Shown here piece after piece: positions 42,195 to 63,855 of a stretch of 64,000 bases of DNA. The stretch comes from Paenibacillus glycanilyticus. Lineage in GTDB: Bacteria; Bacillota; Bacilli; Paenibacillales; Paenibacillaceae. The translations under genes and the position numbers were made by a program. The notes under the pieces are model-generated. The model had not been told where the DNA came from. It did not search any database and was given only the letters and a program-made list of their open reading frames with translations. Each line of letters begins with the position of its first letter. Positions within the stretch are counted from its first letter, which is position 1. The stretch covers positions 124,001 to 188,000 of the forward strand of contig NZ_BSSQ01000005.1 in NCBI RefSeq assembly GCF_030161375.1. Reading direction: 5' to 3'.

Positions 42195-43019
42195 TTAAGG
42201 AGCCACATCGCTATACGTTGTGCCCCATTTGTAATTGTCGTAATAGACCTTCATCGTATTGTTCTGTGCTCCTCGGTACATACCGAAGGAATTGTAATAT
42301 TGATTGATGAAGTTTTTGCCTTGAAAGCCTGCCAGGAAGCCGAGGTAGCCGGTCCAATTGACGACCTGTGTGCCGTTGTACCAGATCTTCACCCCGCCAT
42401 TGCCGCTGGCATCGGGTTTGAAGCCAATTACAATAGAGTTAAATTGATCCGTCGTTACTTCCTGCGACCACAGGGTAAGAGCGTTCCCGCTTGGACCGTT
42501 GACGCCGTCGATGTTGTAGTAATCTTTATTGCGAACTTTGAACTGGTAGGTCAGCTTACCGTTCACGTTTGCCAATTCAAGCGCTCCTTGCGGAGAAACG
42601 TAATAGCTGTCCTGATGGAATTGGTCAAGCACAACCCAGTTGGTCGGCAGCGCGCTGTCGGATGGAATTCCGATCTGAAACCCGTTATACCGCCATTCCC
42701 CGAACGGCTGATTTCTTGCGGCATAATATTCGTTCCTCTGCTTCTCGCCGGCTGTATATGGATTAGCCTGCAGCTTCAGGCTTGAGCCCGTTCCGGATGG
42801 CGTCCATGTCGAGAAATAAGGCATGACCATGTTGTTGCGGTCCAGCTCTTTCTCCTCGAATGTCACTCCGCTGTCAGTCAAGTCCCAGCTCGTGGAATTG
42901 ATCGAAGCTCCTTCAACGTCAATGTTGGCTATGATGCTTGCGGATGCTACGGACGCAAAAATCGTTACGGAACTGACAAGACCAAGCATTCCTAAAGTCC
43001 ATTTTCTTTTGATTGCCAT
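42195..43019 (-). CDS. Secreted polysaccharide lyase-like jelly-roll protein (heparin-lyase-I-like fold)
   Basis: This 274-residue exported protein has a signal peptide (LGMLGLVSSVTIFASVASAS, cleavage near 28). The remainder resembles a single jelly-roll domain of the Polysacc_lyase type: NEYYAARNQPFGEWRYNGFQ, GIPSDSALPTNWVVLDQFHQ and the closing YDNYKWGTTY. The QFHQ histidine/glutamine and the late Tyr-x-x-Tyr cluster resemble the active-site layout of uronate lyases with this fold. It would cleave an acidic polysaccharide outside the cell. The substrate could be glucuronan, alginate or a glycosaminoglycan-like polymer. GGAGG precedes the ATG. It is downstream of the 2332-residue SLH protein but separated by a hairpin. 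Confidence 0.7.
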   Translation of the reverse strand: MAIKRKWTLGMLGLVSSVTIFASVASASIIANIDVEGASINSTSWDLTDSGVTFEEKELDRNNMVMPYFSTWTPSGTGSSLKLQANPYTAGEKQRNEYYAARNQPFGEWRYNGFQIGIPSDSALPTNWVVLDQFHQDSYYVSPQGALELANVNGKLTYQFKVRNKDYYNIDGVNGPSGNALTLWSQEVTTDQFNSIVIGFKPDASGNGGVKIWYNGTQVVNWTGYLGFLAGFQGKNFINQYYNSFGMYRGAQNNTMKVYYDNYKWGTTYSDVAP

Positions 43020-43195: not shown

Positions 43196-46100
43196 TTACT
43201 GGTTATACACACGATACAGCAGCATCGCCGCTTCGGCTCTTGTCGTTGTGCCAAGCGGGCGGAGGAGGCTGCCCGAGCCCTGCACTACCCCGCTTCCGAT
43301 CAACGTTTGCACGCTGCTCTTGGCATAATCGGCAACTTGCGCCGCATCGTGGAATGTTGCCAGATCGGCAGACGTTCCGCTGCCCGGATTGTTGCCTGCC
43401 AGGCGCATCGCGCGTTCAACCATGACGATCATGTCCTGCCTTGTAATATCTTCCGCCGGATTCAAGCGGCCGTTGCCTACGCCGTTGCTGAGCCCCAGTG
43501 TCAGAGCTATTCCGGCAGCTTCATAGTAATAGTCCGTTTGATGTACGTCGGCAAAGTTCGTCTCCACATCGGCTGTAAGTCCCAGCGCCTTTATCAACAG
43601 CTGGAGGAAATCCGCTCTCGTGATGTTGGCGTTCGGATTAAAGGTTGTATCCGATGTTCCGTTTACAATACCCTGAGACACCAATACTTCCACCGCTTCT
43701 TTCGCCCATGCCGCTTGGTCCAGATCCTTAAACGTTTTCACCTCGTAGCCTACCGCATACAGACTGAAATGGGTTGTTGTAAAGGTCAGTTTACCTGTTG
43801 CCGCATCAAACTTTGCCGGCATCCTGATAATCTGTCCAGCGCCGTCGATATACCAGATGGCAATGTGCTCCGGATGGTTCAATTCCTGCGCGGTTGGCGT
43901 ATACGGAATGCTGACAGTTACCGGTGCATTGTTGTTTTTCCATGCAACCGCTTTTCCATCCAGCAGCGCCTGCAATTCAATGACCGGTTTATCTCCAATC
44001 TTCCGTTTCGCATCGGCGTTTAACAGCGAGGTATCCGCCCATCCGATGGAAATTCCAACAACAGTTGCTTGTTTCAAGTCATTTGCTTTGAACATGTTAT
44101 CCGGCAGGGTAACCGTGCCGACCGGGGTTATTAGGTTTACGGCCTTGTCTGATTTACCGTTGCCCGCATTCCCGTTTAGGAAACCGGATGCGGGAATGTT
44201 CAACCTATAGGCAGAAGCGCCAGCCAGCTCGCTCATTGTCACACTGACGATTTTATGTCCTTGCTGATCGGCATCTGTTTGCCCGAAAGCTTGTATGAGC
44301 GTCGCCTCGTCTACATTCGCTTGAGCCGTGCCGGCAGCCAATACCGGCTTCAGAACGATATTCCCCTTGTCCGGTGATGGAGTTACGGGAGTAGGCGGCG
44401 TTGATGGAGTGACGGCAGGAACGGTATAGCGATATTCTTCGGCATTTGGACTCTCCGAGACGCCGTTCACTGCACTCACCGTGAAATAATACGTCGTGCC
44501 TGCATCAAGACCTGGAATTTCGCTACCTGAATAGCCGTTCTCCGGTACGCTAAGCTGCTTCGTATACGCATGCGATTGTGTACCGTATTTAATGGTATAG
44601 CCCTGCGCGCCTTCGACTTGGCCAAATACGGCCTTCGTCTTGGCATCCGTTGTCTCCATGCTCGTCATTACGGGCTTGCTTAAGCCGTTTAGCTGCTCGA
44701 CCTTGAAGTCGTCGAAGTAAACCGGCGTCAGAACGGAGAACAGACCAACCGTTCCTTTCGTCAACGACGTATCCGTAACGTCATAAGCCAATACGTCGTC
44801 GATATACAGCTTCAGGCGACTGCCGTCGAAGACGGCCTTCATCTTGTGCTCGGCCACTTGCTTGTTCAGCGTGAAATCAAACGCAAGATCCGGAAGAAAA
44901 GCATTGTTTACTTTTCTTCTCAGCATGACTTTTTCGGTATTCGCCGTTTTGTCGTATTTGTAATCCGCTACATAGTAATTGGCCGCCGTGTTGACTCTGC
45001 CGAGCAAGCCTACTTCCTTGGTTGTATCGTCCGGTAATAGCGTAAAGGTCGCGGAGACGGTATAATCGCTCCAATCCGCGCCTTGCGGTAGCCACAGACG
45101 CTCTGGGTTTCCGTTTGCCGTTTTAATTTTACCGTTCTCCATAACGGGCGAACCGGAAGACAGCACCCAATCGCTGGCATACTCGCCGTCATTGAAATCG
45201 TCCGTGAACAGCGTCGCTGCGTTCGCCATGGCCTTCCACTCGTTAGAGAGGCTGCTTGCGCCGTTAGCGTTGCGTCCCTCGATTACGAAGTAATAAGGCG
45301 CTTGGGATACGGGAACGTTCACGGCATAGCCCGAGGCCGTAATGTTGTCTATCACTTTCGTATAGCCGCCAGGGCTTAGACCGTACTTAAGCGTATACGA
45401 CGTGTTCTTCGGATCGGTCGTAAAGTTGACGATCAGGCGGTTGCCATCCGAAATGATATTCGTAATGGTCGGCGTAACGGCATCGGGCACTTTAGGCGCG
45501 AAAGAGAGCTCTCGCGAATTCGCGCTTTCCCCGTTCGGGTCAATCGCCGAGACGGCGAAATAATACGTTGTATCGTTATTTAGTCCTGTAATTACCGGAT
45601 TCGCGCTTGTCGTCAGCAACGTATGCGTATATTGACCCGGTTGCGTTCCGTATTTGACTTTGTATGCAACGGCTCCCGGCACTTCCGAGTAGGTTAAGAA
45701 CAACTTAGCGTTGCCAACGGCGATGGACTGAAAATCCGGTGTATGCACGCTAGCATTCTGAACGAGCACGCCATCGAATTTCGCGCTGGCTTGATTCGTA
45801 TAGAGACCAACGGCGCCGGAAGCGAATGCCGCGTCTGTCGTCGCCAGCTGCTGCACACCGTCTACATCAAGCTCCAGACTGTTCCCGTTCATAACGGCTC
45901 TTAAGCGATGAGCCGTATCGGAAGATAAAGCGACATTCTTCTCCACGAGCGGTGTGAATTGGCCATCCGCTTTCTTCTTAATAGCGAGTTTGCCATTGTC
46001 ATAAGAGAACAGGTAGAAGTTATTCTCGTCCTGGACTCTTCCGAGCAGCCCCGTCTCTCCTCCGTTCATATCCTTGATCCAGGCAAAGTAGCTGATATTA

Positions 46101-49100
46101 TCGAAGCTTTTCTTCGAATAGAGAGCCGAGCTTCCCGCCGCATTACTTTGCTTCAGCAGCTTTTCGTTCTCGTCCACGGGCTTCGCGCCCGTCATATGAG
46201 ATACGGGATCCTTCGTGTTATAAGGTACGATGCTGTCATTTACTCCCTGCCAGCTGCCGTCCTTCACGATCCAGTTATCGGCCAGATTGCGCGTGGCTCC
46301 GTCATAGTTAAACGTGTCGTTTAATAAGGCCGGCTTCAGGTAACCCATCGACATCATGCTGTTTATATAAAAGTTTTCCGGCAAGTAACTGGTTGCGATT
46401 TCATAAGAGGACTGGGTGAAGTACCCGTTCACAACCTTTGCGTAGTAGTCCGATACACCCACGCTTTGCAGCTTCACGATATCGGCCGCTGCCGCTTCGT
46501 TCCCCGGCGCATTCATGAATCCAAAAAAATTCATGATTCTCGTATTCTGCAAGCTAGGATCAATGCCAAGCACAACATAGGTTGCGCTTTGTCGGGAACC
46601 CTTCGTATCCGTCGAATCGAATTCATGTCCCATGCCAAGCTGTCCCATATAGTCGCCATCCTGCGCAATGTGCGTCCACGACTTCCGCTGCGAGGCTTCA
46701 TGGAGCTTAAGCGGATTTTGCAAATATTGCTCCAAAGTCACCCCCTTGAAGGACCAGTTGCTTGGCTTGATCGTACGCTGTACTTTATCCGCCTTTTCAG
46801 CCAATCGCTCCGCTTCCGTCGCAGCCGTAGAGAAATTCGTCGTTTTCTCGAACGATTCTTTCACTTTGGTTAACCCCTGCGCGTTCAGCTCCGCGATAAA
46901 AGCGGCGTGATCGTAATTTTGCAAAATGTCCTTCACGTTTTCCAAGCCTAGAACAAAAGAAGATGTAAAGAAAATAGTAAGATTTGGTTCCCAGAAGTTA
47001 ACTCCCGTACCGTTCCACGTATTGGGATCTCCGTTCATCGCGAGGCGATCCCCCGGACGCGGATTACCCAACTCGTTGTAGTCGTTCAGCGTATAGGCCG
47101 TACTGATTAGGCCGGCTTTGAACAACGTCAGAAGCTTGGATTTCTCGGTATCCGTGAACATCCCCATAACCGATTGGTCATTCCACAAGAGCGCAATGCT
47201 GTATAGCATCGGGGATTGCGATCTGGAATCCAGCCCGCCCTGGAGATTAGGCATGTTGGCCGGCGTGCTGAGCATCTTCTTCACGGTCGACACATAACGG
47301 TCGATATATACGGAATCGCGATCGCCCGAAGCTATTTCCTCGGCAATAAAACTAAGTCCCTTGGCGGCCTTAAGCTCGGCTCCCGAGCCTTCCGCCGCGT
47401 CTTTATTGCCGAACACAATATTGGCGGAGTCAGCCATAGCCTTCTTCAAATCGGCTTGTTGCGGCGGCAGATACGGGTAATCCGTGTTGACTGCTTCTAC
47501 GGAAGCCGTCGTCAAATCATCGGGCGTCACATTCCCGACCGCGTCTTTGAGCGCGCCGGCCTGAATGCGCAGCATATTCTGATTGCCGCTTAACGGCTCG
47601 TTCAAAATCATCGTTAGCGTGCTTCCGCTTAGAATCGCCTTGTCCGCTTCGCCCAATGCGCGGTAGTTCGCTCCTCCGTCCGAGGAGAATTGCATAGCTT
47701 GCTTCAGCTGGGCATCGCTTGGCAGATTATTGAACGCATTCTCGCTGAATACAATTACCAGCTTTTTGTTGAAATTCGAAGGATAAGCCGATAGGATTTG
47801 CGGCGCGCTGGAATCCGAGGCTATGGCACCCGATGTATAACTTTGCGCAACCGTATTCCCCGCCGCGTCTTTGAGCGCGTTTGCCGCCACGAGCAGCTTG
47901 TTCGAATCGCCGCTTATAGGCAACGTCCGCGTTACCTTGAGTTTACCGCCCGTTATCTCCACGGTGTCCCCGCTGGCTAATGGCAGGAAGTTTGTGCCGT
48001 CCGCGGAAAATTTGACGGCATTCTTCAAATCTTCCGAGGAAGCCAGATTGCTAAACAAAGCTTCATCAGCCGATAAGGTCAATTGCTTGCCCGTCAGATC
48101 GGTTTGAAGAACGGGATTAAGCACCGGAGCCGTCACGTCGTATACGAGCGTATTCGTGGTCACCATCGAAGCAAGGACGTTTTGCCCACTGTCCTGCAAC
48201 GTGTTTGCGGCCACTTGCACCTTGGCCCCAGAAGCGCTTAACCGGTTCACCAGCGTAATCGTCAGCTTTGTTCCGTTCAGAGTCACTTGATCCCCGCTTT
48301 CAAGCGCGGCGAAATTCATCCCATCCCTGGCGATGGTAACGGCGGCTTTCAACGCGGCGGGATTTGCCGTAGCATTGCCAAGGTTATCGCTAAATTGCAG
48401 ATCAACGGTTCGGTTCTCATTGCTGACAACGCTGTCCACATAGGAAGGCGGTTCATTATCGTAATTGACGACCAATTGCGGGGCATTTGCTCCGCTTTCT
48501 TTGCCGCTTACCGTCCGGTTTACCGAAGGCGTTCCCAGTAGAACGAAGGAAACGACGCCATCCGCCAGCTTCTGCTGCTCTACGTAGGAAGTGACATCCC
48601 ATTCATACCATCCGTTTCCTCCCCCTACGCTGGACGCGGTAATCGCGGAGCCGTAAGTTGGTTGATTGGAGTAGGTAAGCCCGGATTCCGTCCATGCGTC
48701 ATCAACCGCATACAAAGTGAGCGGCTCAGCCGCAGCGCCCGCATCCGTGAAATTCAATCGAAATTTTGCCGAATTGTAGATGCCAAGCGAATCCACGTTA
48801 AATTTGAAGAAAATGCGGCGATTGTAAGTCGAACCGCCCTCTTTAAGCAGCATCGCCGTTTCGGTCCCATAGTTGCTCGACAAGTTGGCGGCACCGCTGT
48901 CGACTCTCGCGTCTTCCGAGACCGTTATCGTTCTGCCTTGCTCAAGTCCGCCCAAGTTCGACGTGACCGTTTCAATCGCTGTTGGTGTGGCGTTGCTTTC
49001 CGATTGAAGAGCTCCCGAAGCAACCTTCAGTTTATTCCGAATGCCCATAAGCGCTTCATTAAAGGTAACCGTTAGAACATTGCCGGTAATGGCTACCTGA

Positions 49101-50194
49101 TCCTCGGATTGCAACGCCGCGTAAGTTGCCCCTTCGTCTTGCGACAACGATACGCTTGCTTTCAGCTGATCCGCCGTACCCATCACACTGATGGGCTTGT
49201 CATAAACAAGCGCCACGCTTTTGCCGTTATTACCGACCGTTGCCGACAGAAATGCCGGCGCGCTGGCATCCTGCATGCCGATAAGCGCCTCCGTCGTGAC
49301 GGGCGAGAGCAGAATGTTGCCTGCGGCATCCTTTACCGATGAACCAGCCACACGGATTTTGTTTAATGATCCGCTTAATGCTTGCTGTAGCCCTACTTGA
49401 ATGTTGTTTCCGCTGATTTCAACTGTGTCGTCCGCGCCAAGCGGATTAAAGTTCACGCCGTCCGTCGCCAGCGAGATCTGATCTTTCAGAACAACTCCCG
49501 CATTCTCTGCAAGAGCTTCGTTGTATGTTAATTGAATGCCTTTGAAGTCTACTCCAACCGCGCTAGATTGGTAGACCGGCGGCGTATCGTCCGATGTATA
49601 TTCCAGCTTCGGTCTTTGCGTATCGTACGGTCTTTCGGTATCGTAAATTTGAACTTGGGTGTTTGTCGAATTGGCAATCATAATGGAAGCTTTGCCAACC
49701 GCTTTTTGCGCCTTGATGTAGTCAGTCAGGTCAATCGAATAATAGCCGTCCGTTGTCCCTATGTTGATCGAACCTATTTTATCTCCGTAATAAGGCTTAT
49801 TATTCCAGTTAATCGTTGTTTGATCCCACGCCTGATCATCAACCGCGTACACGTTTAAAGAAACGGCAGCCGCCGGGGCTTTGGCGTACACTTTCACTTC
49901 CGCTTTCGTTATCGCGTCCGCAGACGGGAGCATGCTAACGTTGAATCTCATAAACACTCTTCTCGTTACGGAGAGATTGGAGTCTTCCTTGATGCTCAAT
50001 AAATTGGCATTTGGATCATTGTAATTGGTGGAAGGATTTCCCCCGTCCACATAAGCGTCCGCTTCGGCGAATATGGCATTAGTCGCCGCATGTACGGATT
50101 GCGGCTGAATTAAGATCGAACCGTTCAGCGCGGTAAACGCCAGGCTGGCGATCAACATTTGACTGACAAACCTTTTTATTCGTAAGGATTTCAT
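43196..50194 (-). CDS. Giant (2332 aa) S-layer-anchored multidomain polysaccharide-active protein
   Basis: Domains in order: signal peptide (1-36); CBM96-like domain (37-200); two SwmB-like calcium-type beta domains (204-305, 312-412); second CBM96-like (418-578); three more SwmB-like (582-686, 688-793, 798-900, several with KDAAGN); an all-helical region I cannot assign (about 905-1300) with NGTGVNFWEPNLTIFF and WTHIAQDGDYMGQLGMGHEF, possibly a lyase-type alpha/alpha toroid; concanavalin-like domain (1303-1480); two FN3 (1483-1650); a second concanavalin-like (1660-1835, sharing VGLLGRV-like stretches); FN3 (1838-1925); Pro/Thr linker; pre-SLH domain (1945-2150); three SLH repeats (2152-2332). 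It is surface-bound. GAAGGG precedes the ATG. It follows the binding-protein gene of an importer operon, so its degradation products probably feed that importer. Confidence 0.88.
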   Translation of the reverse strand: MKSLRIKRFVSQMLIASLAFTALNGSILIQPQSVHAATNAIFAEADAYVDGGNPSTNYNDPNANLLSIKEDSNLSVTRRVFMRFNVSMLPSADAITKAEVKVYAKAPAAAVSLNVYAVDDQAWDQTTINWNNKPYYGDKIGSINIGTTDGYYSIDLTDYIKAQKAVGKASIMIANSTNTQVQIYDTERPYDTQRPKLEYTSDDTPPVYQSSAVGVDFKGIQLTYNEALAENAGVVLKDQISLATDGVNFNPLGADDTVEISGNNIQVGLQQALSGSLNKIRVAGSSVKDAAGNILLSPVTTEALIGMQDASAPAFLSATVGNNGKSVALVYDKPISVMGTADQLKASVSLSQDEGATYAALQSEDQVAITGNVLTVTFNEALMGIRNKLKVASGALQSESNATPTAIETVTSNLGGLEQGRTITVSEDARVDSGAANLSSNYGTETAMLLKEGGSTYNRRIFFKFNVDSLGIYNSAKFRLNFTDAGAAAEPLTLYAVDDAWTESGLTYSNQPTYGSAITASSVGGGNGWYEWDVTSYVEQQKLADGVVSFVLLGTPSVNRTVSGKESGANAPQLVVNYDNEPPSYVDSVVSNENRTVDLQFSDNLGNATANPAALKAAVTIARDGMNFAALESGDQVTLNGTKLTITLVNRLSASGAKVQVAANTLQDSGQNVLASMVTTNTLVYDVTAPVLNPVLQTDLTGKQLTLSADEALFSNLASSEDLKNAVKFSADGTNFLPLASGDTVEITGGKLKVTRTLPISGDSNKLLVAANALKDAAGNTVAQSYTSGAIASDSSAPQILSAYPSNFNKKLVIVFSENAFNNLPSDAQLKQAMQFSSDGGANYRALGEADKAILSGSTLTMILNEPLSGNQNMLRIQAGALKDAVGNVTPDDLTTASVEAVNTDYPYLPPQQADLKKAMADSANIVFGNKDAAEGSGAELKAAKGLSFIAEEIASGDRDSVYIDRYVSTVKKMLSTPANMPNLQGGLDSRSQSPMLYSIALLWNDQSVMGMFTDTEKSKLLTLFKAGLISTAYTLNDYNELGNPRPGDRLAMNGDPNTWNGTGVNFWEPNLTIFFTSSFVLGLENVKDILQNYDHAAFIAELNAQGLTKVKESFEKTTNFSTAATEAERLAEKADKVQRTIKPSNWSFKGVTLEQYLQNPLKLHEASQRKSWTHIAQDGDYMGQLGMGHEFDSTDTKGSRQSATYVVLGIDPSLQNTRIMNFFGFMNAPGNEAAAADIVKLQSVGVSDYYAKVVNGYFTQSSYEIATSYLPENFYINSMMSMGYLKPALLNDTFNYDGATRNLADNWIVKDGSWQGVNDSIVPYNTKDPVSHMTGAKPVDENEKLLKQSNAAGSSALYSKKSFDNISYFAWIKDMNGGETGLLGRVQDENNFYLFSYDNGKLAIKKKADGQFTPLVEKNVALSSDTAHRLRAVMNGNSLELDVDGVQQLATTDAAFASGAVGLYTNQASAKFDGVLVQNASVHTPDFQSIAVGNAKLFLTYSEVPGAVAYKVKYGTQPGQYTHTLLTTSANPVITGLNNDTTYYFAVSAIDPNGESANSRELSFAPKVPDAVTPTITNIISDGNRLIVNFTTDPKNTSYTLKYGLSPGGYTKVIDNITASGYAVNVPVSQAPYYFVIEGRNANGASSLSNEWKAMANAATLFTDDFNDGEYASDWVLSSGSPVMENGKIKTANGNPERLWLPQGADWSDYTVSATFTLLPDDTTKEVGLLGRVNTAANYYVADYKYDKTANTEKVMLRRKVNNAFLPDLAFDFTLNKQVAEHKMKAVFDGSRLKLYIDDVLAYDVTDTSLTKGTVGLFSVLTPVYFDDFKVEQLNGLSKPVMTSMETTDAKTKAVFGQVEGAQGYTIKYGTQSHAYTKQLSVPENGYSGSEIPGLDAGTTYYFTVSAVNGVSESPNAEEYRYTVPAVTPSTPPTPVTPSPDKGNIVLKPVLAAGTAQANVDEATLIQAFGQTDADQQGHKIVSVTMSELAGASAYRLNIPASGFLNGNAGNGKSDKAVNLITPVGTVTLPDNMFKANDLKQATVVGISIGWADTSLLNADAKRKIGDKPVIELQALLDGKAVAWKNNNAPVTVSIPYTPTAQELNHPEHIAIWYIDGAGQIIRMPAKFDAATGKLTFTTTHFSLYAVGYEVKTFKDLDQAAWAKEAVEVLVSQGIVNGTSDTTFNPNANITRADFLQLLIKALGLTADVETNFADVHQTDYYYEAAGIALTLGLSNGVGNGRLNPAEDITRQDMIVMVERAMRLAGNNPGSGTSADLATFHDAAQVADYAKSSVQTLIGSGVVQGSGSLLRPLGTTTRAEAAMLLYRVYNQ

Positions 50195-50303: not shown

Positions 50304-51881
50304 TTACTTCTTGCCGTTCGCGTTATACCATTCCGTTGCTTGCTTGATTAGATCGTCGCCGCCGCGCGATCTCCAATTTTTCACGTACTCGTCGAAATAA
50401 TCTACAGGCTGGTCGCCCATTACGATTTTTGCCGCCGTTTCAATAAACATGGTGCCGGGAACCGCGAACTCGCCGATCTCAGGCAGCGAAGATTTGAACG
50501 TCGGAGCGCCTAACAGAATGTTCGGTTGGCCTTCTTGCTTGCCTACGGTGAAGAACTCTTCCAATTTAGCTACGGCTTCGTCTCCGACTTGAACCTTTTT
50601 CAGATCAGGATTCCAACCGGCTAGATTAAACGTAATGGTTCTCCAGAGGGCCGTTTTGTCGTCGGTATCTTTTTGCTGGTTATAAGTAATTTTGCCTGCG
50701 CTGTCTTTGGTGTACGTGACGTCCGGAATACCGAAGGTAACAAATTCCTGTCCTTCTTCCGTAACGAGCCAATCGAAGAACTTGACGATCGCTTCCGGAT
50801 CTTTCGCTTTCTTGGTAACGGAGAACGTTTTGTTGTAAGCGGAAATGCCAAAGCCCGCATATTGCACGCCAGGTGCTTTAGGAGATATCATAGGCTCCAC
50901 GATTGCGCCTTTGCCGGGCAGCGCTTTATTTAATTTATCTTGCCAGTCCCAGCCGAGATTTGGATCGTGAACCCACAAGCCGACTTGGTCGTTTTGAATT
51001 TTTTGTTCCCATGTATTGCGTTTGTTCGACATGAATTCGCTGTCGAGCAATTTCTCGTCGTACAGCTGCTTGAGGAACGTAAGAGCCTGTTTCATTTGAG
51101 GACTCGTGTTCGAAGGCACAACCTCTCCGTTAATAACCGTCGCTCCATACTCGTTCGCTCCGAACATGCCGAGAATCGTGTCCAGCCACGTAAAGTTCTC
51201 TCGGCCGGACAATGGAATCTCGTCCTTCTTGCCGTTGCCGTTTGGATCTTTGTCGCGGAATGCGCGCAGCATGGTCAACAATTCATCCGGTGTTTTAGGC
51301 GTCTCCGTAATGCCTACTTTGTCCATCCAATCCTTGCGCACGAAGAACATGCGGTTGACCTTAGAATCTCCGGCTGCTGATTCAGGAATGGCATAAATTT
51401 TTCCGTCACGGGTTACGCCGTCCCAAGCCGCTTGCGGAATAACCTTTTTCAGGTTAGGGCCATATTTATCAATATAGTCATTCAAGGGAATCAATTGGTT
51501 GTTCGCATACAAGTCACCGTTCACGCCATAATCGGAGATCACGTCCGGCAGCTCGCCGCTGGCGAATTTAACCTTTTTCAGGTTATCCGCCTGTGCTGCG
51601 GGCAAAAACGTAATATCCAGAATCGTGTTCGTTTTCTCTGCCAGGTATTTAATCGTAGGATCATCCATCGCATTGCCGCCTGGGACAGGTTGGCTATTAT
51701 CCGTCGTTAACAGGCTAATCTTAACCGGCGCTTTTGGCGCTTCTGTTGCATCTGCATTTGCTGCGGGGCTTGCCGAGGATTCCGTCTTCGCGTTATTCGT
51801 ATTATTGTTGCCGCATGCTGCGAGAGCGCCAGCCATTGTTACCGCTAGAGCTACGCTGACCCATTTTTTCGAAGCGTTCAT
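50304..51881 (-). CDS. Sugar ABC transporter substrate-binding lipoprotein (LplA-like), second system
   Basis: This 525-residue lipoprotein has a signal peptide ending at LAAC (Cys about 23) and an Asn/Ala-rich linker. The mature part is a large oligosaccharide-binding protein of the LplA/YtcQ type: NTILDITFLPAAQADNLKKV, FASGELPDVISDYGVNG and KDPNGNGKKDEIPLSG, a segment with the DPNGNGKKDE calcium-binding-like loop common in this family. GGGAGG precedes the ATG. It is third in the operon after two permeases, the usual order, and is followed by the giant SLH protein. It is only distantly similar to the binding protein at 32.8-34.5 kb, so the two importers should carry different oligosaccharides. 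Confidence 0.93.
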   Translation of the reverse strand: MNASKKWVSVALAVTMAGALAACGNNNTNNAKTESSASPAANADATEAPKAPVKISLLTTDNSQPVPGGNAMDDPTIKYLAEKTNTILDITFLPAAQADNLKKVKFASGELPDVISDYGVNGDLYANNQLIPLNDYIDKYGPNLKKVIPQAAWDGVTRDGKIYAIPESAAGDSKVNRMFFVRKDWMDKVGITETPKTPDELLTMLRAFRDKDPNGNGKKDEIPLSGRENFTWLDTILGMFGANEYGATVINGEVVPSNTSPQMKQALTFLKQLYDEKLLDSEFMSNKRNTWEQKIQNDQVGLWVHDPNLGWDWQDKLNKALPGKGAIVEPMISPKAPGVQYAGFGISAYNKTFSVTKKAKDPEAIVKFFDWLVTEEGQEFVTFGIPDVTYTKDSAGKITYNQQKDTDDKTALWRTITFNLAGWNPDLKKVQVGDEAVAKLEEFFTVGKQEGQPNILLGAPTFKSSLPEIGEFAVPGTMFIETAAKIVMGDQPVDYFDEYVKNWRSRGGDDLIKQATEWYNANGKK

Positions 51882-51956: not shown

Positions 51957-52838
51957 TTATTCTTTCACGGAGCCAAGCGTAGCTCCTTTTACGAAATGTT
52001 TCTGCAGAAACGGATAGATCACCACGATCGGCGCGGTAGCAAGCACAATCGTTGCCATCTCAAGTGCCTTCGGCAAAAGCTTGCCCCCGGTATCTCCCGC
52101 TACCGCTGCCGCTATGTCGTTCGAGCTGCCTGCCGCAATCAGGAAATAAATATACATTTGGAGCGTTTGGAGATGCCGATCGTTAATGTACAGAAGCGGC
52201 GCGAAATAGCTGTTCCAGTGACCAACCGCGTAGAACAGCAGCAGCGTCACCATGATGGGTTTGGATAACGGAACAACAATCTGCCACACGATGCGGTAGT
52301 CGCTCATTCCGTCCACCTTCGCCGCATCAAAAAGCTCCTCGGGCAAACTGCGGAAAAACGTAATGCACAATATCATGTTAAACGCGCTGATTGCCCCCGG
52401 TACAATCAAAGCCCATATGGTATTAATCATGTGCAATTCCTTCACGACGAGATAGGTCGGAATTAAGGGCGCCTGAAATACCAGCGTGAAAATAATGAAG
52501 AGCATGATGGCTCTGCGGCCTCTCAGATACAACTTGGATAACGGGTATGAACCAACCACGGTCAATAGCATATTGAGCGCAGTCGCGATGACGACGACCT
52601 TCACCGTCATCCAGCCGGCCTTCCAGAACGCATCATTAGCCGCTACAAATTTGAATTGCTGCAAGGTTGGTTCTACCGGCCAGAAGGAAACTCTGGACTG
52701 GATGATGGCATTGTTGGAAGAGAATGCGCCTGCTACGACATGAAGGAGCGGAAGAACGGCAACCAGACTCATGACGACCAGCAGCAGGATGTTGAAAACG
52801 TCGAATGATTTCTCGCCCAAGGATTGTTTGATTTTCAT
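51957..52838 (-). CDS. Sugar ABC transporter permease (YtcP/LplC type), second system
   Basis: This 293-residue membrane protein has about six transmembrane helices (SFDVFNILLLVVMSLVAVLP is the first) and the EAA loop SLPEELFDAAKVDGMSDYRI. It ends HFVKGATLGSVKE, almost the same tail as the YtcP/LplC permease of the first system. ATG 52838 has AGGAGG six bases upstream and fits the family N-terminus (MKIKQSLGEKSFD); the longer frame to 52937 overlaps the partner gene. With the LplB-type permease it forms the channel for the second importer. Confidence 0.93.
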   Translation of the reverse strand: MKIKQSLGEKSFDVFNILLLVVMSLVAVLPLLHVVAGAFSSNNAIIQSRVSFWPVEPTLQQFKFVAANDAFWKAGWMTVKVVVIATALNMLLTVVGSYPLSKLYLRGRRAIMLFIIFTLVFQAPLIPTYLVVKELHMINTIWALIVPGAISAFNMILCITFFRSLPEELFDAAKVDGMSDYRIVWQIVVPLSKPIMVTLLLFYAVGHWNSYFAPLLYINDRHLQTLQMYIYFLIAAGSSNDIAAAVAGDTGGKLLPKALEMATIVLATAPIVVIYPFLQKHFVKGATLGSVKE

Positions 52839-52848
52839 TTGCTGCCTC

Positions 52849-53829
52849 CTAGTACAAGCTCTCGCCCGTTGTTGATTTGCTGATTTTATTCGCTCCCACG
52901 AGAAGGACAAAACCAATGACCGATTTGAACAATCCAATAGCCGTTGTCATGGAAAATTGACCGTTCATAATGCCTAAACGATAAGCATAGGTATCCAAAA
53001 TTTCCCCAACCTCATACGTAATCGGGCTTAAGAAGATATACACCTGTTCAAATCCTACGTCCATGACGTTGCCGATTTTGAGGAGCAGGAGAATCGTAAT
53101 CGCTGGCAGGATGCCTGGGAACGTGACATTCTGGAACTGCTTCCAGCGCCCTGCCCCATCTATCTTGGCCGCTTCGTACAGCGAAGGATTTATGCCGGAT
53201 AAAGCAGCCAGGAAGATGATCGTGCTCCAGCCCATCTCCTTCCATATGCCGGCAGATACAACGACGGACCGGAACGCTGAAGGCGATTGCAAGAAATCGA
53301 ATGCATGTCCCCCTAATCCTTCAATCATGCCGTTGACGAGGCCGCTTTGCACCGAAAGCATCATGTAAGCCAAGCCGTAGACGAGCGTCCAAGACAGAAA
53401 ATGCGGTAAGTACAAAACCGTTTGCACCCAGCGCTTGAAGCCCATATTGCGAACCTCATTCAGCAGGCATGCTAGAATAATCGGCGCCGGGAAAGAGAAC
53501 ACGATTTGGTACAAACTGATCAGCAGCGTATTTTTAATTAATCGGGCATACTCCGGATTCGTATACATGAGTTTAAACCATTGAAATCCGACCCATTTGC
53601 TTTTGAGAAAACCTTCAAAGATGTTGTAATCCTTGAAGGCAATAACGCTGCCAAGCAGAGGAATGTACTTGAAGGTTATAAAATAAATGAAGACGGGAAT
53701 CAACATGATATAGAGGGCATTGTTTTTCTTCACGAATTGAAAGAAACTCAGCTCTCCGGTTTTCCGTTTCCTGTTAGACAACGGCTTCTTTACCTGGACC
53801 GAAGCTGCTTCTAGGATCTCGTTATTCAT
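52849..53829 (-). CDS. Sugar ABC transporter permease (LplB type), second system
   Basis: This 326-residue permease opens the second importer operon. It has about six transmembrane helices (ALYIMLIPVFIYFITFKYIP first), the family motif AFKDYNIFEGFLKSKWVGFQ, and the EAA loop INPSLYEAAKIDGAGRWKQF. It ends SKSTTGESLY. GAGGTG lies six bases before ATG 53829; an in-frame GTG nine bases upstream is less likely. A TATAAT at 53860-53865 lies about 30 bases upstream. The gene directly upstream encodes a cytoplasmic six-hairpin enzyme, separated by about 100 bases that contain this promoter. Confidence 0.93.
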   Translation of the reverse strand: MNNEILEAASVQVKKPLSNRKRKTGELSFFQFVKKNNALYIMLIPVFIYFITFKYIPLLGSVIAFKDYNIFEGFLKSKWVGFQWFKLMYTNPEYARLIKNTLLISLYQIVFSFPAPIILACLLNEVRNMGFKRWVQTVLYLPHFLSWTLVYGLAYMMLSVQSGLVNGMIEGLGGHAFDFLQSPSAFRSVVVSAGIWKEMGWSTIIFLAALSGINPSLYEAAKIDGAGRWKQFQNVTFPGILPAITILLLLKIGNVMDVGFEQVYIFLSPITYEVGEILDTYAYRLGIMNGQFSMTTAIGLFKSVIGFVLLVGANKISKSTTGESLY

Positions 53830-53859
53830 AGGTCCCACCTCTTCTCTGTTTATATTTCT

Positions 53860-53932: not shown

Positions 53933-56122
53933 TTATTCGACGCGATAAGTCAAACGGCCGCCTTCAAAGCTAGATTTAACGAGGGGAACCGTCCCCCTCT
54001 CCCAATCGGCGAACAAAAGAATAGGCACTTGCAGCGACCCTCGAACCGGGGCAAAAGATTGCTTCCCAGCAACCGCATCGTACACGAAGCCCGCTGCCGC
54101 ATCCAAATAACCGAACACGGCTACGCCTCTTGGATAGAAGCTCAGGTTATTGCCGTAGAACGTTTCGAAGAACAAGGCCACCTGCTGCGTATTGGTCGTG
54201 GTTTGCCAGCTCCAGTAATTCTCTATGAGATGGAAGAGATCCAGCCCCCGGTAGGCCGCGGCGATGTCTCTAAGCATATTCATGGATATCCAGCCTACTT
54301 TGCCCGAGTGACTGGCGAGTCCCGGAATAAATTGACCTTCGTTCTCCGTGTCTTCATAGCTCGTATGGCGGCAGCCGTATCGGCCCAATGTTTTGTCCGT
54401 TGCCGTTTCCATGTCCAGGCGCAGTCTTTCATCTAGCAAGCCGGTACGATGGCCGACCATATCGAGCAAGGAAAGGCCATTCACCGTATAAATATGATAA
54501 GCATCCCAGCCTAGCAGCTCGCCCGTCTTTGGCTCGCCCGTCCACGGATCCACGGTTCCGTCCATCGTTCTCGACAGCGTGACGGCATAATGATCCTTCA
54601 GCCACCCCTTCTCCTCGATGGTCGCAAGAGCCGTCTGAGCATACTGCTCATAGACTTCCAATTCCTTAGCGTCCGCATCGCCCGCATGACGTAGGATTTG
54701 AATGCCTGCCTGAATTGCGGCCAATGACTTCACGCCCAAATAAACTTGTTCCGAGCCGTATTGAATGGCAGGAGAAGCATCGTCGACGGTATTGGCGCAG
54801 CCTTTATCCGGGATGCCGTTTCCGGTCGTATCGCAACAAGCGATAAAAGCCATTAATTTACGGATAAACCCGCTATGCCGAACAATCGTAGCATCCTTGC
54901 CGGATCTCCGCCAATGCGCGAAAGCCAGAAGAATGTAATTCGTACTTTCTTCGACTTCCATCTCGTGAGGGTAATACTGCTTCGTGCTATCGCCGAATAC
55001 CCCCATATCATGGGATAAATAGAGCGTACCCTCGCCCCGTTCTCCGAGCAGAAGCTTCCCGTCTTTGCCAAAGAATGGCCATTCATTAAGCTCAAGCTCC
55101 AGCAACTCCGGCCAGAACGCAAGATAGAACGGCCCTTGCGTATACTCCACGTCGACGGTGGAATGGAAGTAACAATTGCCCTCCCACACGGTAAACCAGT
55201 CTTGCCCGTTGTCCCTTACCACCCACCATGTATTCAGCAGCCAGGCGTGCAAGGTTTGAGCCAGCAATTTAGAAGTAGATTCTCCAAGCGTATGATTGGA
55301 CAGAATACGATCGACCTTCTCCGAATTATCCGCTACTTCATCGGCATGACGAATGGACCATTCAACAACCTGATCAAGTCCGGCAAAGCTTTGCGTATAT
55401 TTGAATGGACTGCGATGGCCCAATACATTCAATACGGGCTGATCCCAAGCGCACCATGCAAGGGATAGGGAGTCGCCTTTCATTCCTTTGCCCAGCGAGA
55501 AGGATGCCGTCACGCAGTCGTCTTCCCACACGCCCGAAAGAATTGAGATGTGATCCCGGCATGATATGGTTTCCTCTTCCGTGCGAATTCCGCTCTGATG
55601 ATCCCCTTCGTCTTGCGGCCGCAAAACAACGGATTCATATACAGCTTCAATTCCCGCCGCATTCGATTCTAGAGCGGAGCTAAAGGCAAATCCTTCTCCC
55701 GAGAAGCCCAAGAACAGCTTGCCTTCCACCGTTTCGTCGTACTGCGCAATCCAGCGGTACGAGGAAGGCAAGCGATCCACTTCGAGACTCAGATAAATGA
55801 CTGGCACCGTACTGAAAAAGTTATCTCTCGGACGAAACGGAATGCGGGCCGTTAACTTCACGTGAATACCCGTCTCCGGATCGATGCCGCTTAACGTCAT
55901 CGTTGTCGCCGTCATCTCCTGATCAACGAACTCGAAGGATTGTCCCTCCTGCGCCAGCGGAAGCGTCAGCACCCGCTCTCCGAGCGTCACTCCCGCTCTA
56001 ATCTGAATCGGCAAGCCGGGATGGTTGCCATGCCGGACGAGGTACGATTGCCGGTTAACCGGATCCCAGGCAAATCCCAGCCTTGATCCCAATACTGTCA
56101 GTGCGTCTCCCATTAATTGCAT
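53933..56122 (-). CDS. Six-hairpin glycosidase-like enzyme (possible clan GH-O relative)
   Basis: This 729-residue cytoplasmic protein has an N-terminal beta-sandwich (about 1-280) and a C-terminal (alpha/alpha)6-like barrel. The segment WFTVWEGNCYFHSTVDVEYT, followed by FYLAFWPELLELELNEW, is laid out like the nucleophile region of GH116/GH52 beta-glycosidases (a Glu, then S/T-x-D-V, then WPxLEL). Later conserved-looking stretches are GEGTLYLSHDMGVFGDST, YPHEMEVEESTNY and ANTVDDASPAIQYGSEQVYL. The assignment is by pattern only, so family and substrate remain open. GGAGG precedes the ATG. It lies between the two-component genes and the importer permeases, so it probably cleaves the imported oligosaccharide. 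Confidence 0.6.
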   Translation of the reverse strand: MQLMGDALTVLGSRLGFAWDPVNRQSYLVRHGNHPGLPIQIRAGVTLGERVLTLPLAQEGQSFEFVDQEMTATTMTLSGIDPETGIHVKLTARIPFRPRDNFFSTVPVIYLSLEVDRLPSSYRWIAQYDETVEGKLFLGFSGEGFAFSSALESNAAGIEAVYESVVLRPQDEGDHQSGIRTEEETISCRDHISILSGVWEDDCVTASFSLGKGMKGDSLSLAWCAWDQPVLNVLGHRSPFKYTQSFAGLDQVVEWSIRHADEVADNSEKVDRILSNHTLGESTSKLLAQTLHAWLLNTWWVVRDNGQDWFTVWEGNCYFHSTVDVEYTQGPFYLAFWPELLELELNEWPFFGKDGKLLLGERGEGTLYLSHDMGVFGDSTKQYYPHEMEVEESTNYILLAFAHWRRSGKDATIVRHSGFIRKLMAFIACCDTTGNGIPDKGCANTVDDASPAIQYGSEQVYLGVKSLAAIQAGIQILRHAGDADAKELEVYEQYAQTALATIEEKGWLKDHYAVTLSRTMDGTVDPWTGEPKTGELLGWDAYHIYTVNGLSLLDMVGHRTGLLDERLRLDMETATDKTLGRYGCRHTSYEDTENEGQFIPGLASHSGKVGWISMNMLRDIAAAYRGLDLFHLIENYWSWQTTTNTQQVALFFETFYGNNLSFYPRGVAVFGYLDAAAGFVYDAVAGKQSFAPVRGSLQVPILLFADWERGTVPLVKSSFEGGRLTYRVE

Positions 56123-56291: not shown

Positions 56292-57380
56292 TCAGGATTT
56301 CATCCGTTTCTTGTAATCGAGCGGGCTTAACCCATAATGCTTCTTAAACAATTGAGAGAAATACGTCACGTCCTCATAACCAACCTGATTGGCAATCGCG
56401 TAGATTTTTTCCGTGGTTGCCATTAAGATGTTGCGAGCTTCGCGCATTCGCACCGTTACCGTGTATGTGCCGATCGTCATTCCGGTTTCCTGCTTGAATA
56501 AGGTGCACATATACGTTTTATTCATGGCTGCGTGATCCGCAAGCTCCTGAAGATTAATCTGCTCTCCGTAGTGCCGGTCGATATACATTTTTATTTTATC
56601 GATAACCTTTACGGATTGCTGATCGCGGATGCCCCTCATCGCATCCACAAGCTGATAAGCGCCTTCTTCCAGCCTTCGAACCGCACATAACCGGAAGTAG
56701 CTTCGAACCTCTTGCAGCGACAGGGCGGCTTCGCCAAGCCCAATATCGTTGCCCTCCTCCAGCGCTAGCTTTATGCGGTCGGAAGTCAATTCCTCGATGA
56801 TCGTGCTTAGCCACAGATTGCTTAACGGATTCAGCAAGTTAAAGTTGCCTGCTACCCAGCTTTCCAGCAATTCCAGCGTTTCTACAATTAGAAGAGGCAG
56901 CGTCTCTACATGCAAAGTTCGAATATGCTCCAGCCATTTATCCACCCATTGTTTATGATGAGGCAGCTTTTTGAGCATTAACTGGGCTGCAACTCGATGA
57001 CGATCCGCGTCCAACTTTTCACTAGCCTTGTCCAAGGCACGGAAGAGCAGCTCCTCATCCACCGGCTTCAGAATGTAATCCAGAGCATGTAATTGAATAC
57101 TCTGCTTAGCGTATTGAAAATCATCGTAACTGGAAACAACCATACAGCGCATCCAGGGATACCGCTCGTTGATTGCGCCGATGAGCGCCAGCCCGTCCAT
57201 GACCGGCATGCGGATGTCCGTTATGCATAAATCCGCATAGTGATTATCTAGCCAATCCAGCGCTTTCACGCCATTGGCAGCCGTCCCGGCAACTACGGTC
57301 GTCGGATGGTAAGCTTCTATTGATAAAGATAAACTGTCACGAATCAGAGAGGAGTCATCTACAAGAAGTACGCGTATCAT
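56292..57380 (-). CDS. YesN-type response regulator (short form), second system
   Basis: This 362-residue regulator has a receiver domain (1-120, Asp55 in DLCITDIRMPVMDG; Lys in DYILKPVDEELL), a short middle part and a C-terminal AraC domain (about 262-362) with INLQELADHAAMNKTYMCTL and KIYAIANQVGYEDVTYFSQL, followed by FKKHYGLSPLDYKKR. The linker is about 160 residues shorter than in the YesN-like regulator at 31-33 kb. Its ATG overlaps the kinase stop (ATGA), so the two are translationally coupled. It should activate the second importer operon downstream (inference). Confidence 0.93.
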   Translation of the reverse strand: MIRVLLVDDSSLIRDSLSLSIEAYHPTTVVAGTAANGVKALDWLDNHYADLCITDIRMPVMDGLALIGAINERYPWMRCMVVSSYDDFQYAKQSIQLHALDYILKPVDEELLFRALDKASEKLDADRHRVAAQLMLKKLPHHKQWVDKWLEHIRTLHVETLPLLIVETLELLESWVAGNFNLLNPLSNLWLSTIIEELTSDRIKLALEEGNDIGLGEAALSLQEVRSYFRLCAVRRLEEGAYQLVDAMRGIRDQQSVKVIDKIKMYIDRHYGEQINLQELADHAAMNKTYMCTLFKQETGMTIGTYTVTVRMREARNILMATTEKIYAIANQVGYEDVTYFSQLFKKHYGLSPLDYKKRMKS

Positions 57381-59188
57381 CCGCCAGTTCTCTCCTTTGG
57401 TTTATTCGGGAAAATAACGCTAACGCGAGTCCCGCCTTCATCCGCCATTCTTTCTATTGTGATACCCGCAAGACTATGATGCGGATAAAATGTTTTAATA
57501 CGATAATGAACATTCAGAATGCCGATTCTCGAAAGCTGCAGGAAATCCTGTTCGGTTTGCACTTGTCCCAGCGCTTCCTGGATCTCACTCAGCTTCTCGC
57601 CGGATATGCCCGCTCCGTCATCTTCGATATCCACGCGGACGTAATCGTTCTCCCATCGGTAAGCCGAGATAACAATCCTTAATCGCTCACCGGTCATTTC
57701 GTAACCATGCTTGATGCAGTTTTCCACAAAGGGCTGCAAGCAAGCCTTCAGGCACGCTGATTGCTCAATCCCGGCCTGAATCTCAAATCGGAACTCCAGC
57801 TCGCTGGGATATAAATGATCCATAATTAGCATGTAATCCCGAATATGCTTCACTTCGTCTTCAAGGGTAACTACAGATTCTTTATAATTGGACGTATACC
57901 TCAGCATATTCGAAAGCGCGATGGTCGATTTGCGAATGGGCTGATGTCCGGCCAGATTCGCCATGGCATTAATAGACTCTAAAGCATTATACAGAAAATG
58001 GGAATTGATTTGAGACTGAAGGGCAGACAATACGGCCCGTTGCTGAACCATCTTGGATTCGGCCAATTGATGGATGGAAGAATCGATGCGGTCAAGCAGC
58101 AAGTTATACGTCTCCGCCAGATCGGCAACTTCGTCCGTACCTTTCACATCGGTGCGAATATCAAAGCGTCCCAGCTTCGTTGTTGTCATCGTCCTGCGAA
58201 GTACCTTAATGCGCCTCGTAACCGAACGCGCCACTAGATAGACGAGAACAATGGCAATGACTAGACTAAGCATGGCAATGGCAGCGGTCCAATTCCGAAT
58301 TTCAATAATGCGCTGTGCCAAATCTTTATAAGGTACAAACACCACTACCCGCCAATTTACTTTCGGAATGGATTGATAGACGACCATCTGCATCTTGCTT
58401 TTATCATACAGATAGGCAGAAGCCTCGCTCTTCATCCGGGCTACCAGCGAATCTTCCAGATTAGCATTAATCATGGAGAGATCCGGCGCGGAAATAATCT
58501 TGCCGTCTTCATTGGCAATAATCGCTTGGCCATTCTTCCCCAGTTCAATCTGATCTAGAATTTGCTGAGTTGGCAGCAAGGAAATATCCACGGCCAAATA
58601 CACGGGTTGATCGGTGTAATACAGCTTTTGCACATAGGTCAGAATCGGAATTCGGATAAATTGTCCGTTGCTGTTTTTGTAATCGTTGCGAAGCTGCACA
58701 AACGACTGAATCCGGCCCGTGTCCGCTATCTTTTCTTTCAGTCCCGAGTCGGAGAAAGAGTATTCCGTATTTAATACGGCATCCCTAATGGGATTGCGAT
58801 ATACCATTTGATTGCCGTTCTCGTTATACAAAATAATGGAAAGCGTTTCCTGATGAAAATTGATATAAGGGCCAATCACCCGATTTTCCATGTCCTTGAG
58901 CTTCGTGTAGTTCTGATAGGTATCCCCTGGTTTAAGTAGCGTCCAAGCCTGGAAATCCTGACTGACCGCAAGCGTTTGGAAAAACTGTTCGTTATCGTTT
59001 ATATACCGGGTCAAATTCAATGTGGCCTGCTTCAAAATCTGATTGCTGAAGCGCTGGGCATCGGATTCAATCGCCCTGGCGCTCTTGTAATAGCTAAATC
59101 CCCCGATCGTAATAACGACAAGGATGACAATGCAGGAGATCATGAGAATAAGCTTCCATTGCAAGGAACTTTTAATGAAACGGAACAA
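57377..59188 (-). CDS. YesM-type sensor histidine kinase with Cache-like sensor, second system
   Basis: This 603-residue kinase has TM1 (about 12-34), a large extracellular dCache-like sensor (35-295), TM2 (300-320), HAMP (320-375) and the phosphoacceptor region INSHFLYNALESINAMANL with His397. The ATP-binding part has CLQPFVENCIKHGYEM and DIEDDGAGIS. In almost all relatives the residue before the histidine is proline (INPHF); here it is serine. It starts at TTG with GGAGGAGAG upstream. It is translationally coupled to its regulator and heads a locus with an importer and surface enzymes. The signal is presumably a polysaccharide fragment. Confidence 0.93.
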   Translation of the reverse strand: MFRFIKSSLQWKLILMISCIVILVVITIGGFSYYKSARAIESDAQRFSNQILKQATLNLTRYINDNEQFFQTLAVSQDFQAWTLLKPGDTYQNYTKLKDMENRVIGPYINFHQETLSIILYNENGNQMVYRNPIRDAVLNTEYSFSDSGLKEKIADTGRIQSFVQLRNDYKNSNGQFIRIPILTYVQKLYYTDQPVYLAVDISLLPTQQILDQIELGKNGQAIIANEDGKIISAPDLSMINANLEDSLVARMKSEASAYLYDKSKMQMVVYQSIPKVNWRVVVFVPYKDLAQRIIEIRNWTAAIAMLSLVIAIVLVYLVARSVTRRIKVLRRTMTTTKLGRFDIRTDVKGTDEVADLAETYNLLLDRIDSSIHQLAESKMVQQRAVLSALQSQINSHFLYNALESINAMANLAGHQPIRKSTIALSNMLRYTSNYKESVVTLEDEVKHIRDYMLIMDHLYPSELEFRFEIQAGIEQSACLKACLQPFVENCIKHGYEMTGERLRIVISAYRWENDYVRVDIEDDGAGISGEKLSEIQEALGQVQTEQDFLQLSRIGILNVHYRIKTFYPHHSLAGITIERMADEGGTRVSVIFPNKPKERTGG

Positions 59189-59407: not shown

Positions 59408-60373
59408 CTATCCATCAAGCCTTACGTCTAATTGCCAAGATATAACCTCTCCCGATTTAATCCTCATCAACTTATCGTTCCTGTAGGCAAGCGTGAGATC
59501 ATCATAAAAACCATTGCAAGGTTCAATCGCACAGACAGAGTTCTTGAGATAGTTCCCTTCGTCGATCCATATGCCGAGGTACGGAATTTCTTCGGCAGAC
59601 CAGCGCAGTGCGATAGACTCTCCTGTATTTCGTTCTACCAATCCCGCATGTCCTTCTCTAATCTCGCCGTTTACGTAGAACTTGCGGGAATCCCGGTTCG
59701 AAGCAGGACCAATACGGTTTATCGGATAAGGGAGAACCTCGTCGCCTTTCGGCCAGCTGTACAAGCTTCCTTCCTGTAAGAGATTGCCACCGTCGACGCA
59801 AAGGATTTGGGCCACGTCATCCGGGAGGATCACTTCAGAATGCGCGGTGGTTGCAAAGAGCGGATGTGCGCACCAAAAGGCTAACAGCGTATCCGAACCA
59901 CGATTCGTGCAGGAGTAATTGAAGCGTAATGTCTGGTCCTCAACAAAGCTAATCTCTCTGGTGAAGGTGTACGGCAGCGAGCGCCCATCAACCGAGCAAG
60001 CGATTAAGCCATCCCCAATAACAGAATTCCACGGAATGGACCAGAGTTCGCCATGGTCTGGAATCGGACTTCCGAGGTAAGGACCTTCACAGGGATAGTC
60101 ACAGGCCAGAATGGACGGAAAGCATTCGTCCCAACCACTGATGCCGGATTCGCCGAAGTCAGAACCGTACGCAACCGGATACAGTTCGCGAGCATCGGAA
60201 CCAATAAGCCATTCCTTGCCTGTCGTCTTGTAAAGCAAGGACACGATCTTTGCTCCGAGTTCCGGAATGACGATAAGCTTGACCTTATCGGATTCCAACT
60301 CAATCGCTTGTAATCCTTGATACGCGGTTTTACTGGCAATCCCGCCTTGGTACGCCCCCAACCCGTTCTTCAT
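59408..60373 (-). CDS. Aldose 1-epimerase-like (galactose mutarotase superfamily) protein
   Basis: This 321-residue cytoplasmic protein belongs to the galactose mutarotase-like beta-supersandwich superfamily. Markers include VKLIVIPELGAKIVSLLYKT, GWDECFPSI, the HGELWSIPW histidine, and CAHPLFATTAHSEVILPDD, where mutarotases keep active-site histidines, plus a late glutamate in CAIEPCNGFYDD. It may interconvert sugar anomers or act on a modified sugar. Its ATG overlaps the creatininase stop (ATGA). It is the last gene of an operon with a Rieske ferredoxin, a reductase, an aldo/keto reductase and a creatininase-like enzyme, which makes a sugar-derivative pathway likely. Confidence 0.82.
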   Translation of the reverse strand: MKNGLGAYQGGIASKTAYQGLQAIELESDKVKLIVIPELGAKIVSLLYKTTGKEWLIGSDARELYPVAYGSDFGESGISGWDECFPSILACDYPCEGPYLGSPIPDHGELWSIPWNSVIGDGLIACSVDGRSLPYTFTREISFVEDQTLRFNYSCTNRGSDTLLAFWCAHPLFATTAHSEVILPDDVAQILCVDGGNLLQEGSLYSWPKGDEVLPYPINRIGPASNRDSRKFYVNGEIREGHAGLVERNTGESIALRWSAEEIPYLGIWIDEGNYLKNSVCAIEPCNGFYDDLTLAYRNDKLMRIKSGEVISWQLDVRLDG

Positions 60374-63524: not shown

Positions 63525-63537
63525 CACGTTCATCTCC

Positions 63538-63855
63538 TTACTCAATCCTCACATACACTTTGCCGCCTGTCACCTTCACGGGATACGTTTGAAGCGCGTC
63601 ACAAGCCGGCGTCTTCTTCGCTTGGCCGGTTGTATAGTCAAATCTTCCATTATGCTTCGGACACTCGATTATGTTTCCCATGACTAATCCATCGGACAAA
63701 TGAACGCGTTCATGGGTGCAGTAGCCGTTTGTAGCATAAAACGCATTTTTATCGGACCGGTACACAGCCAGCGTAACGGAGCCGTAATCGAACCGAATGA
63801 CATCCTCCTCCTCAATGTCATTCGAATCGCATACTTCAATCCATGGCTCTTGCAT
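63538..63855 (-). CDS. Rieske-type [2Fe-2S] ferredoxin
   Basis: This 105-residue Rieske ferredoxin has the cluster ligands CTHERVHL and CPKHNGRFD, the short spacing seen in biphenyl- or toluene-dioxygenase ferredoxins, and ends YPVKVTGGKVYVRIE. It lacks a membrane segment. ATG 63855 is preferred because AGGAGG lies eight bases upstream. It overlaps by 20 bases the 3' end of another frame open to the window edge, so it is coupled to that gene. It differs clearly from the Rieske protein at 5.4-5.7 kb. Confidence 0.92.
   Translation of the reverse strand: MQEPWIEVCDSNDIEEEDVIRFDYGSVTLAVYRSDKNAFYATNGYCTHERVHLSDGLVMGNIIECPKHNGRFDYTTGQAKKTPACDALQTYPVKVTGGKVYVRIE

Follow-up and report, generated by a model that had tools for sequence, protein, structure and literature searches.

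In known toroid polysaccharide lyases (PLs), an asparagine acts as neutralizer, and tyrosine and histidine serve as base and acid (PMC12088678; PMC13169297). The catalytic set comprises His233, Tyr242, and Asn183 in PL8 and Asn191/Asn192, Tyr246, and His401 in PL35 (PMC12088678), and in BoPL38 either Tyr298 or His243 abstracts the proton, depending on the substrate (PMC13169297). Here, we describe a helical domain in a 2332-residue protein encoded in a 64,000-nucleotide stretch of the Paenibacillus glycanilyticus genome (hereafter the window), which is probably an undescribed polysaccharide-cutting enzyme resembling these ring-shaped cutters of acidic sugar chains. We lean toward the view that the protein degrades polysaccharides while anchored to the cell wall and that a toroid at residues ~904–1289 is its catalytic part, acting as a lyase by β-elimination. 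The family, its invariant residues, the predicted all-helical fold, and the gene neighborhood form the observed basis of this proposal, from which we infer the lyase chemistry, the role of each residue, and the substrate. The sequence family is new; its fold and its chemistry are probably both of known kinds, the latter with an unusual residue set.

The helical core and its conserved residues

An earlier note on this DNA had pointed to a helical region at residues 905–1300 that it could place in no family, and our searches lead to the same result. Pfam assigns no domain between residues 905 and 1300 of the window protein, and no strong profile match to a known module was seen: the core alone reaches a best E of only 0.14 in Pfam, has no NCBIfam match at E ≤ 1, and among PDB sequences is closest to 3nmb, a putative sugar hydrolase (E 0.087, 14.8 bits). 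Across 20 family members, the best E values were 0.016 in Pfam and 0.059 in NCBIfam, each from a single member and to a family of unrelated name. Neither is credible, and the core passes the curated cut-off of no Pfam-A or NCBIfam family. The profile of our wide alignment (A6; 20 rows with 18–78% identity to the window protein) retrieves no PDB chain at E ≤ 10, and no published account of the domain was found in the part of the open-access literature that was searched.

Predicted models bear out the helical nature of the region, which is all-helical with twelve helices read. A structure search with the core and the following sandwich was dominated by the sandwich, and the core was therefore folded and searched alone. 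The highest probability among the Foldseek matches listed belongs to 1c82, a PL8 enzyme (0.72, E 0.17). In the VIA structure search, lyases account for 13 of the top 15 rows and the first row is a member of glycoside hydrolase (GH) family GH105; families missing from its 50 rows, PL8, PL12, PL21, PL23, and PL39 among them, are not ruled out by that absence. The core is probably a toroid, and its helices may form six hairpins with Asn1066, Glu1191, Arg1201, and Tyr1206 around one cleft.

Conserved polar residues are present in the core. Asn1066, Glu1191, Arg1201, Tyr1206, Asp1249, and Lys1253 are invariant in all 20 rows of A6, and Glu1069 (19/20), Asn1058, and Asp1196 (18/20 each) are nearly so. 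Of the nine best-conserved polar positions, seven fall no more than four residues from the long-loop face, two are mid-helix, and none is at the other face, a clustering that is suggestive only (p 0.05 by chance). What is said of Asn1058 and Asn1066 depends on the choice of alignment, since a local MAFFT run keeps them in 28/28 and 26/28 rows and A6, which we adopted, in 18/20 and 20/20, respectively. Both sets of rows were hand-picked from 71 full-score sequences, many of which duplicate a gene that had already been fetched; 4 low-scoring secondary stretches were dropped. The motifs quoted in the earlier note are present in the sequence, and of the Asn, Trp, His, and Tyr whose invariance it had raised, the asparagine (1066) and the tyrosine (1206) hold. 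The Trp/His-rich segment that it had pointed out is not supported: Trp1173 is invariant in 20 full-length proteins (alignment A1) but kept in only 7/20 rows of A6, and no histidine is invariant there (His1096 and His1175 10/20 each, His1190 6/20, His1165 3/20). The features concerned are as follows.

46328..47497, minus strand: helical (probably toroid) domain, residues 900–1289, proposed catalytic domain (predicted model, structure search, family alignment, profile scans)
46997..46999, minus strand: codon of invariant Asn1066, proposed carboxylate neutralizer (A6; putative role)
46622..46624, minus strand: codon of invariant Glu1191 (A6; putative role)
46592..46594, minus strand: codon of invariant Arg1201 (A6; putative role)
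46577..46579, minus strand: codon of invariant Tyr1206, proposed base/acid (A6; putative role)

We propose that the helical toroid is the catalytic unit and that the sandwich behind it, which resembles carbohydrate-binding module (CBM) family CBM66 in the structure search of the joint model, may be part of the minimal unit. The CBM96 modules, and perhaps the sandwiches too, would grip a uronic-acid-containing polysaccharide, and the SLH repeats would tether the enzyme to the cell wall. The toroid would then cut the chain by β-elimination with no catalytic histidine: Asn1066 and Arg1201 would neutralize the carboxylate of the uronate, with Tyr1206 abstracting the C5 proton, protonating the leaving oxygen, or doing both, and with Glu1191 orienting or polarizing these three residues. 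The resulting oligosaccharides would be imported via the ATP-binding cassette (ABC) transporter encoded alongside.

The same residues could be read differently. If the toroid hydrolyzed glycosides instead, acid/base catalysis would fall to Glu1191 together with either Glu1069 or Asp1249; the polysaccharide could then be neutral or acidic, and the enzyme would work like other (α/α)6 hydrolases. The conservation of all three acids fits this idea, as do the GH105 top row, the GH88, GH52, GH76, and GH116 enzymes among the VIA rows (all below rank 15), and the GH52-like and GH42 genes of the window. We nevertheless consider it rather unlikely, given the predominance of lyases among the best VIA rows and the position of Asp1249, seven residues from a helix end in the model; the invariant Arg1201-x4-Tyr1206 pair and Asn1066 would moreover have no obvious place beside two acids. 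A uronate C5-epimerase or another enzyme that leaves the polymer uncut, like dermatan sulfate epimerase, is a very improbable identity for the toroid, as such an enzyme accounts for one row only, amid lyase rows within ~1 to 2 Z, and the loci look catabolic, with transporter, glycosidase, and lyases.

Comparison with described families

The earlier note had regarded the helical region as the sole catalytic candidate and had thought of a PL8-like toroid. A catalytic role is probable and this class of fold plausible, whereas membership in PL8 is not supported by the sequence, the following sandwich, or the conserved residues; a kinship of fold is possible in view of 1c82. The hyaluronate, chondroitin, and xanthan lyases of PL8 have a helical toroid followed by a β domain, as the window protein probably does, but that domain differs from the CBM66-like sandwich, and PL8 has a histidine beside its tyrosine and asparagine, whereas the window family keeps the latter two and has no histidine position that is conserved in more than half of the A6 rows. 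PL8_N (PF08124) gives no Pfam match in 20 members at E ≤ 10 and an hhalign probability of 0.1%. Elsewhere in the same genome (G000:C27:36643-37149), a 237-residue open frame carries half a PL8 N-terminal domain (profile positions 1–159 of 323).

The unsaturated uronyl hydrolases of GH105 and GH88 act on small unsaturated products and are mostly intracellular, whereas the window protein is wall-anchored and bears CBMs. Their profile PF07470 matches 0/20 members at E ≤ 10, and hhalign gives 0.2%. The hhalign comparisons of the core family with PL8_N, GH88, and Hepar_II_III_N (20, 19, and 15 sequences, all from Paenibacillales genomes) remain at or below 0.2% but have low power, since these three known families miss one another too. 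The likeness to the CBM66 of Bacillus subtilis levanase covers the sandwich only and not the helical core.

PL38, to which BoPL38 belongs, is listed as an (α/α)7 barrel (PMC12088678), and the model of our core has twelve helices; A6 has no sequence match to PL38 at E ≤ 10, although PL38 chains are present in the PDB. BoPL38 also employs His243 (PMC13169297), whereas the window family lacks an invariant histidine. PL17, PL15, PL39, and PL35 have an antiparallel β-sheet domain, in PL35 the source of His401 (PMC12088678; this placement is deduced from the domain limits given there), and the window protein has the CBM66-like sandwich instead. No PDB chain of these four families is retrieved with A6 at E ≤ 10, at the sensitivity of HMMER, though the PDB holds them all. 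Tyr258 and His202 are catalytic residues in PL17. The heparinase-type β domain PF07940, which covers these families, has no match in the whole window protein at E ≤ 1.

We tentatively suggest a new CAZy-level lyase family, in the collections searched almost restricted to Paenibacillales, whose single toroid does without a catalytic histidine (Tyr/Arg/Asn/Glu), shares very large wall-anchored proteins with CBM66-like and CBM96 modules, and perhaps acts on an uncommon uronic-acid heteropolysaccharide. If this is true, the toroid lyases gain an undescribed enzyme family whose catalytic residues do not include the customary histidine.

Family members and module layout

The open reading frame (ORF) at 43196–50194, with an ATG start, has the coordinates and length first given for it. 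A P. glycanilyticus protein (P0002, locus L002) has the same length and a core that is 93% identical, and residues 895–1340 find 21 proteins of 1296–2546 residues, of which the 20 other than the window's own have E ≤ 3.3e-114; we thus regard the ORF as a real gene. Of the 21 proteins, 12 are listed with an organism, which is Paenibacillus for 11 and a Paenibacillaceae metagenome-assembled genome (MAG) for one. The rows of A6 represent one family, as hhalign joins the 7 close rows to the 13 distant ones at 100% and the two most distant rows to 7 and 18 others at 93.2 and 99.2%.

The single-sequence search matched 4/99 genomes, the window's own included, and added two members with 25 and 27% identity, both in one genome (G090). 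Across the order, the profile search matched 13/392 genomes, again with the window's own, and among 398 genomes of the phylum the wide profile matched two, the window's own and a doubtful one (E 4e-4). One member lies outside, in a Lachnospiraceae MAG (L007). In the collections searched, the family is almost confined to Paenibacillales.

A profile search limited to ~245–780 residues gave three more proteins: P0022 (602 residues), P0023 (588), and P0024 (319). P0022 and P0023 are made up of nothing but the core and a single sandwich, with no obvious signal peptide by reading, so that these two domains are retained as a unit of their own. If the proposal is right, these minimal homologues are a ready test piece for enzymologists who seek enzymes against acidic polysaccharides. 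They also make it improbable that the toroid serves only for binding or structure and has no catalytic role, as might be thought of a domain that shares its chain with four carbohydrate-binding-type and eight Ig/FN3-type modules; the Asn/Glu/Arg/Tyr/Asp/Lys set, invariant down to 18% identity, likewise argues against this.

CBM96 occurs in 20/21 proteins of the first homologue search and in 5/7 distant members, and homologues carry the database label "CBM96 family carbohydrate-binding protein", which can mask a probable catalytic domain. A search with L044, which ranks among the most distant of the members, gave 4 proteins, and no enzymatic name is attached to any of them. The L043 homologue (7964–9394, minus strand) begins at profile position 117, the first third being absent from its frame, and is possibly a broken or short form. 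In L036 (5634–12593, plus strand), one chain holds the toroid domain and a polysaccharide deacetylase (PF01522); its substrate is perhaps acetylated.

The other modules of the window protein largely follow the earlier description. Pfam agrees on two CBM96 stretches (PF24517, 209.3 bits against a cut-off of 26; NCBIfam NF033679, 160 bits against 34), two concanavalin-like domains (PF06439), and three SLH stretches, which together with the signal peptide read from the sequence assign the protein to the SLH wall-anchored class. Pfam finds two of the three FN3 domains, and self-comparison recovers three FN3-like units (28–37% identity). Self-comparison also shows that the two β sandwiches are alike (29% identity, E 2e-16) and confirms five Ig-like repeats (28–39% identity; residues 205–309, 309–412, 583–690, 690–798, and 798–900). 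"SwmB-like" was the earlier note's own label for these; they receive no label in the Pfam scan of the window protein, and Big_5 is precomputed in five homologues (P0007, P0008, P0011, P0018, and P0021).

43196..50194, minus strand: whole ORF, 2332 residues (ORF list)
50084..50194, minus strand: putative signal peptide, residues 1–37, with Lys/Arg start, hydrophobic stretch, and end VHA-A (read from sequence)
49601..50062, minus strand: CBM96/DNRLRE domain 1, residues 45–198 (Pfam, NCBIfam)
48959..49582, minus strand: Big_5-type repeats 1–2, residues 205–412 (self-alignment; Big_5 in the five homologues)
48464..48931, minus strand: CBM96 domain 2, residues 422–577 (Pfam)
47495..48448, minus strand: Big_5-type repeats 3–5, residues 583–900 (self-alignment)
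45749..46318, minus strand: CBM66-like β sandwich 1, residues 1293–1482, the single additional domain kept by both minimal homologues (model and structure search)
45230..45751, minus strand: FN3-like 1–2, residues 1482–1655 (Pfam, self-alignment)
44681..45232, minus strand: ConA/CBM66-like sandwich 2, residues 1655–1838 (PF06439, self-alignment)
44399..44683, minus strand: FN3-like 3, residues 1838–1932 (Pfam, self-alignment)
43205..43747, minus strand: three SLH repeats, cell-wall anchor, residues 2150–2330 (Pfam; matches to S-layer protein sap)

Gene neighborhood

We compared 18 context loci (L002–L008 and L035–L045), of which L002 is the window's orthologous region, L044 and L045 are near-identical, and some come from one genome (e.g., L037–L039). 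Genes for a window-type ABC transporter lie within the fetched stretch in 17/18 loci, the exception being L007, and directly adjoin the toroid gene in 12/18. The neighbors in the window are as follows.

42195..43019, minus strand: downstream neighbor, PF14099 Polysacc_lyase, 274 residues (Pfam)
50304..51881, minus strand: upstream neighbor, ABC transporter solute-binding protein, SBP_bac_1 (Pfam; conserved across loci)
51957..53838, minus strand: two ABC permeases (Pfam; conserved across loci)
53933..56122, minus strand: GH52-like glycosidase (PF03512, PF16335; 4c1o β-xylosidase, E 0.0052; Pfam, PDB sequence search)
56292..59188, minus strand: response regulator (AraC-type) and sensor kinase (Pfam)

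The PF14099 gene is common to the window and L002 only among the compared loci, and PDB sequence searches up to E 10 gave nothing for it. The 729-residue glycosidase combines GH52 and GtaA-type profiles and matches solved structures weakly.

Among 20 hand-picked neighbor ORFs, 3 carry PF07940 heparinase II/III; the one in L038 directly adjoins the toroid gene, and those in L044 and L003 are further away (in L003 ~4.9 kb downstream, with 25.2 bits where the cut-off is 24). In L043, the ORF beside the toroid gene carries PF16332 with CBM96. The other 16 encode GFO/IDH/MocA, FAD or 2-hydroxyacid oxidoreductases, CBM6, F5/8, SLH or CBM96/dockerin, and EutA proteins or have no assignment. The CBM96 modules and this gene context point to the breakdown of a polysaccharide that is probably acidic, and they single out no one substrate. 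P. glycanilyticus, the species of the 93%-identical homologue, is a degrader of Nostoc commune polysaccharide, and the suggestion of an uncommon uronic-acid heteropolysaccharide draws on this; the part of the open-access literature that was searched did not show the Nostoc link. One CBM96 binds alginate (PMC9971899).

In L041, two toroid proteins (5577–10784 and 14825–19903, plus strand) stand on either side of one ABC transporter, and in L004 a 583-residue ORF (5233–6984, plus strand) with no Pfam match at E ≤ 1e-4 separates the toroid gene from that of the solute-binding protein. The homologues P0012 and P0014 both belong to Paenibacillus sp. CMAA1364, on contigs of equal listed length (343225). 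In the window, past the two-component genes, the minus strand encodes a creatininase-family protein (60370–61281) and a pyridine-nucleotide oxidoreductase (62292–63545).
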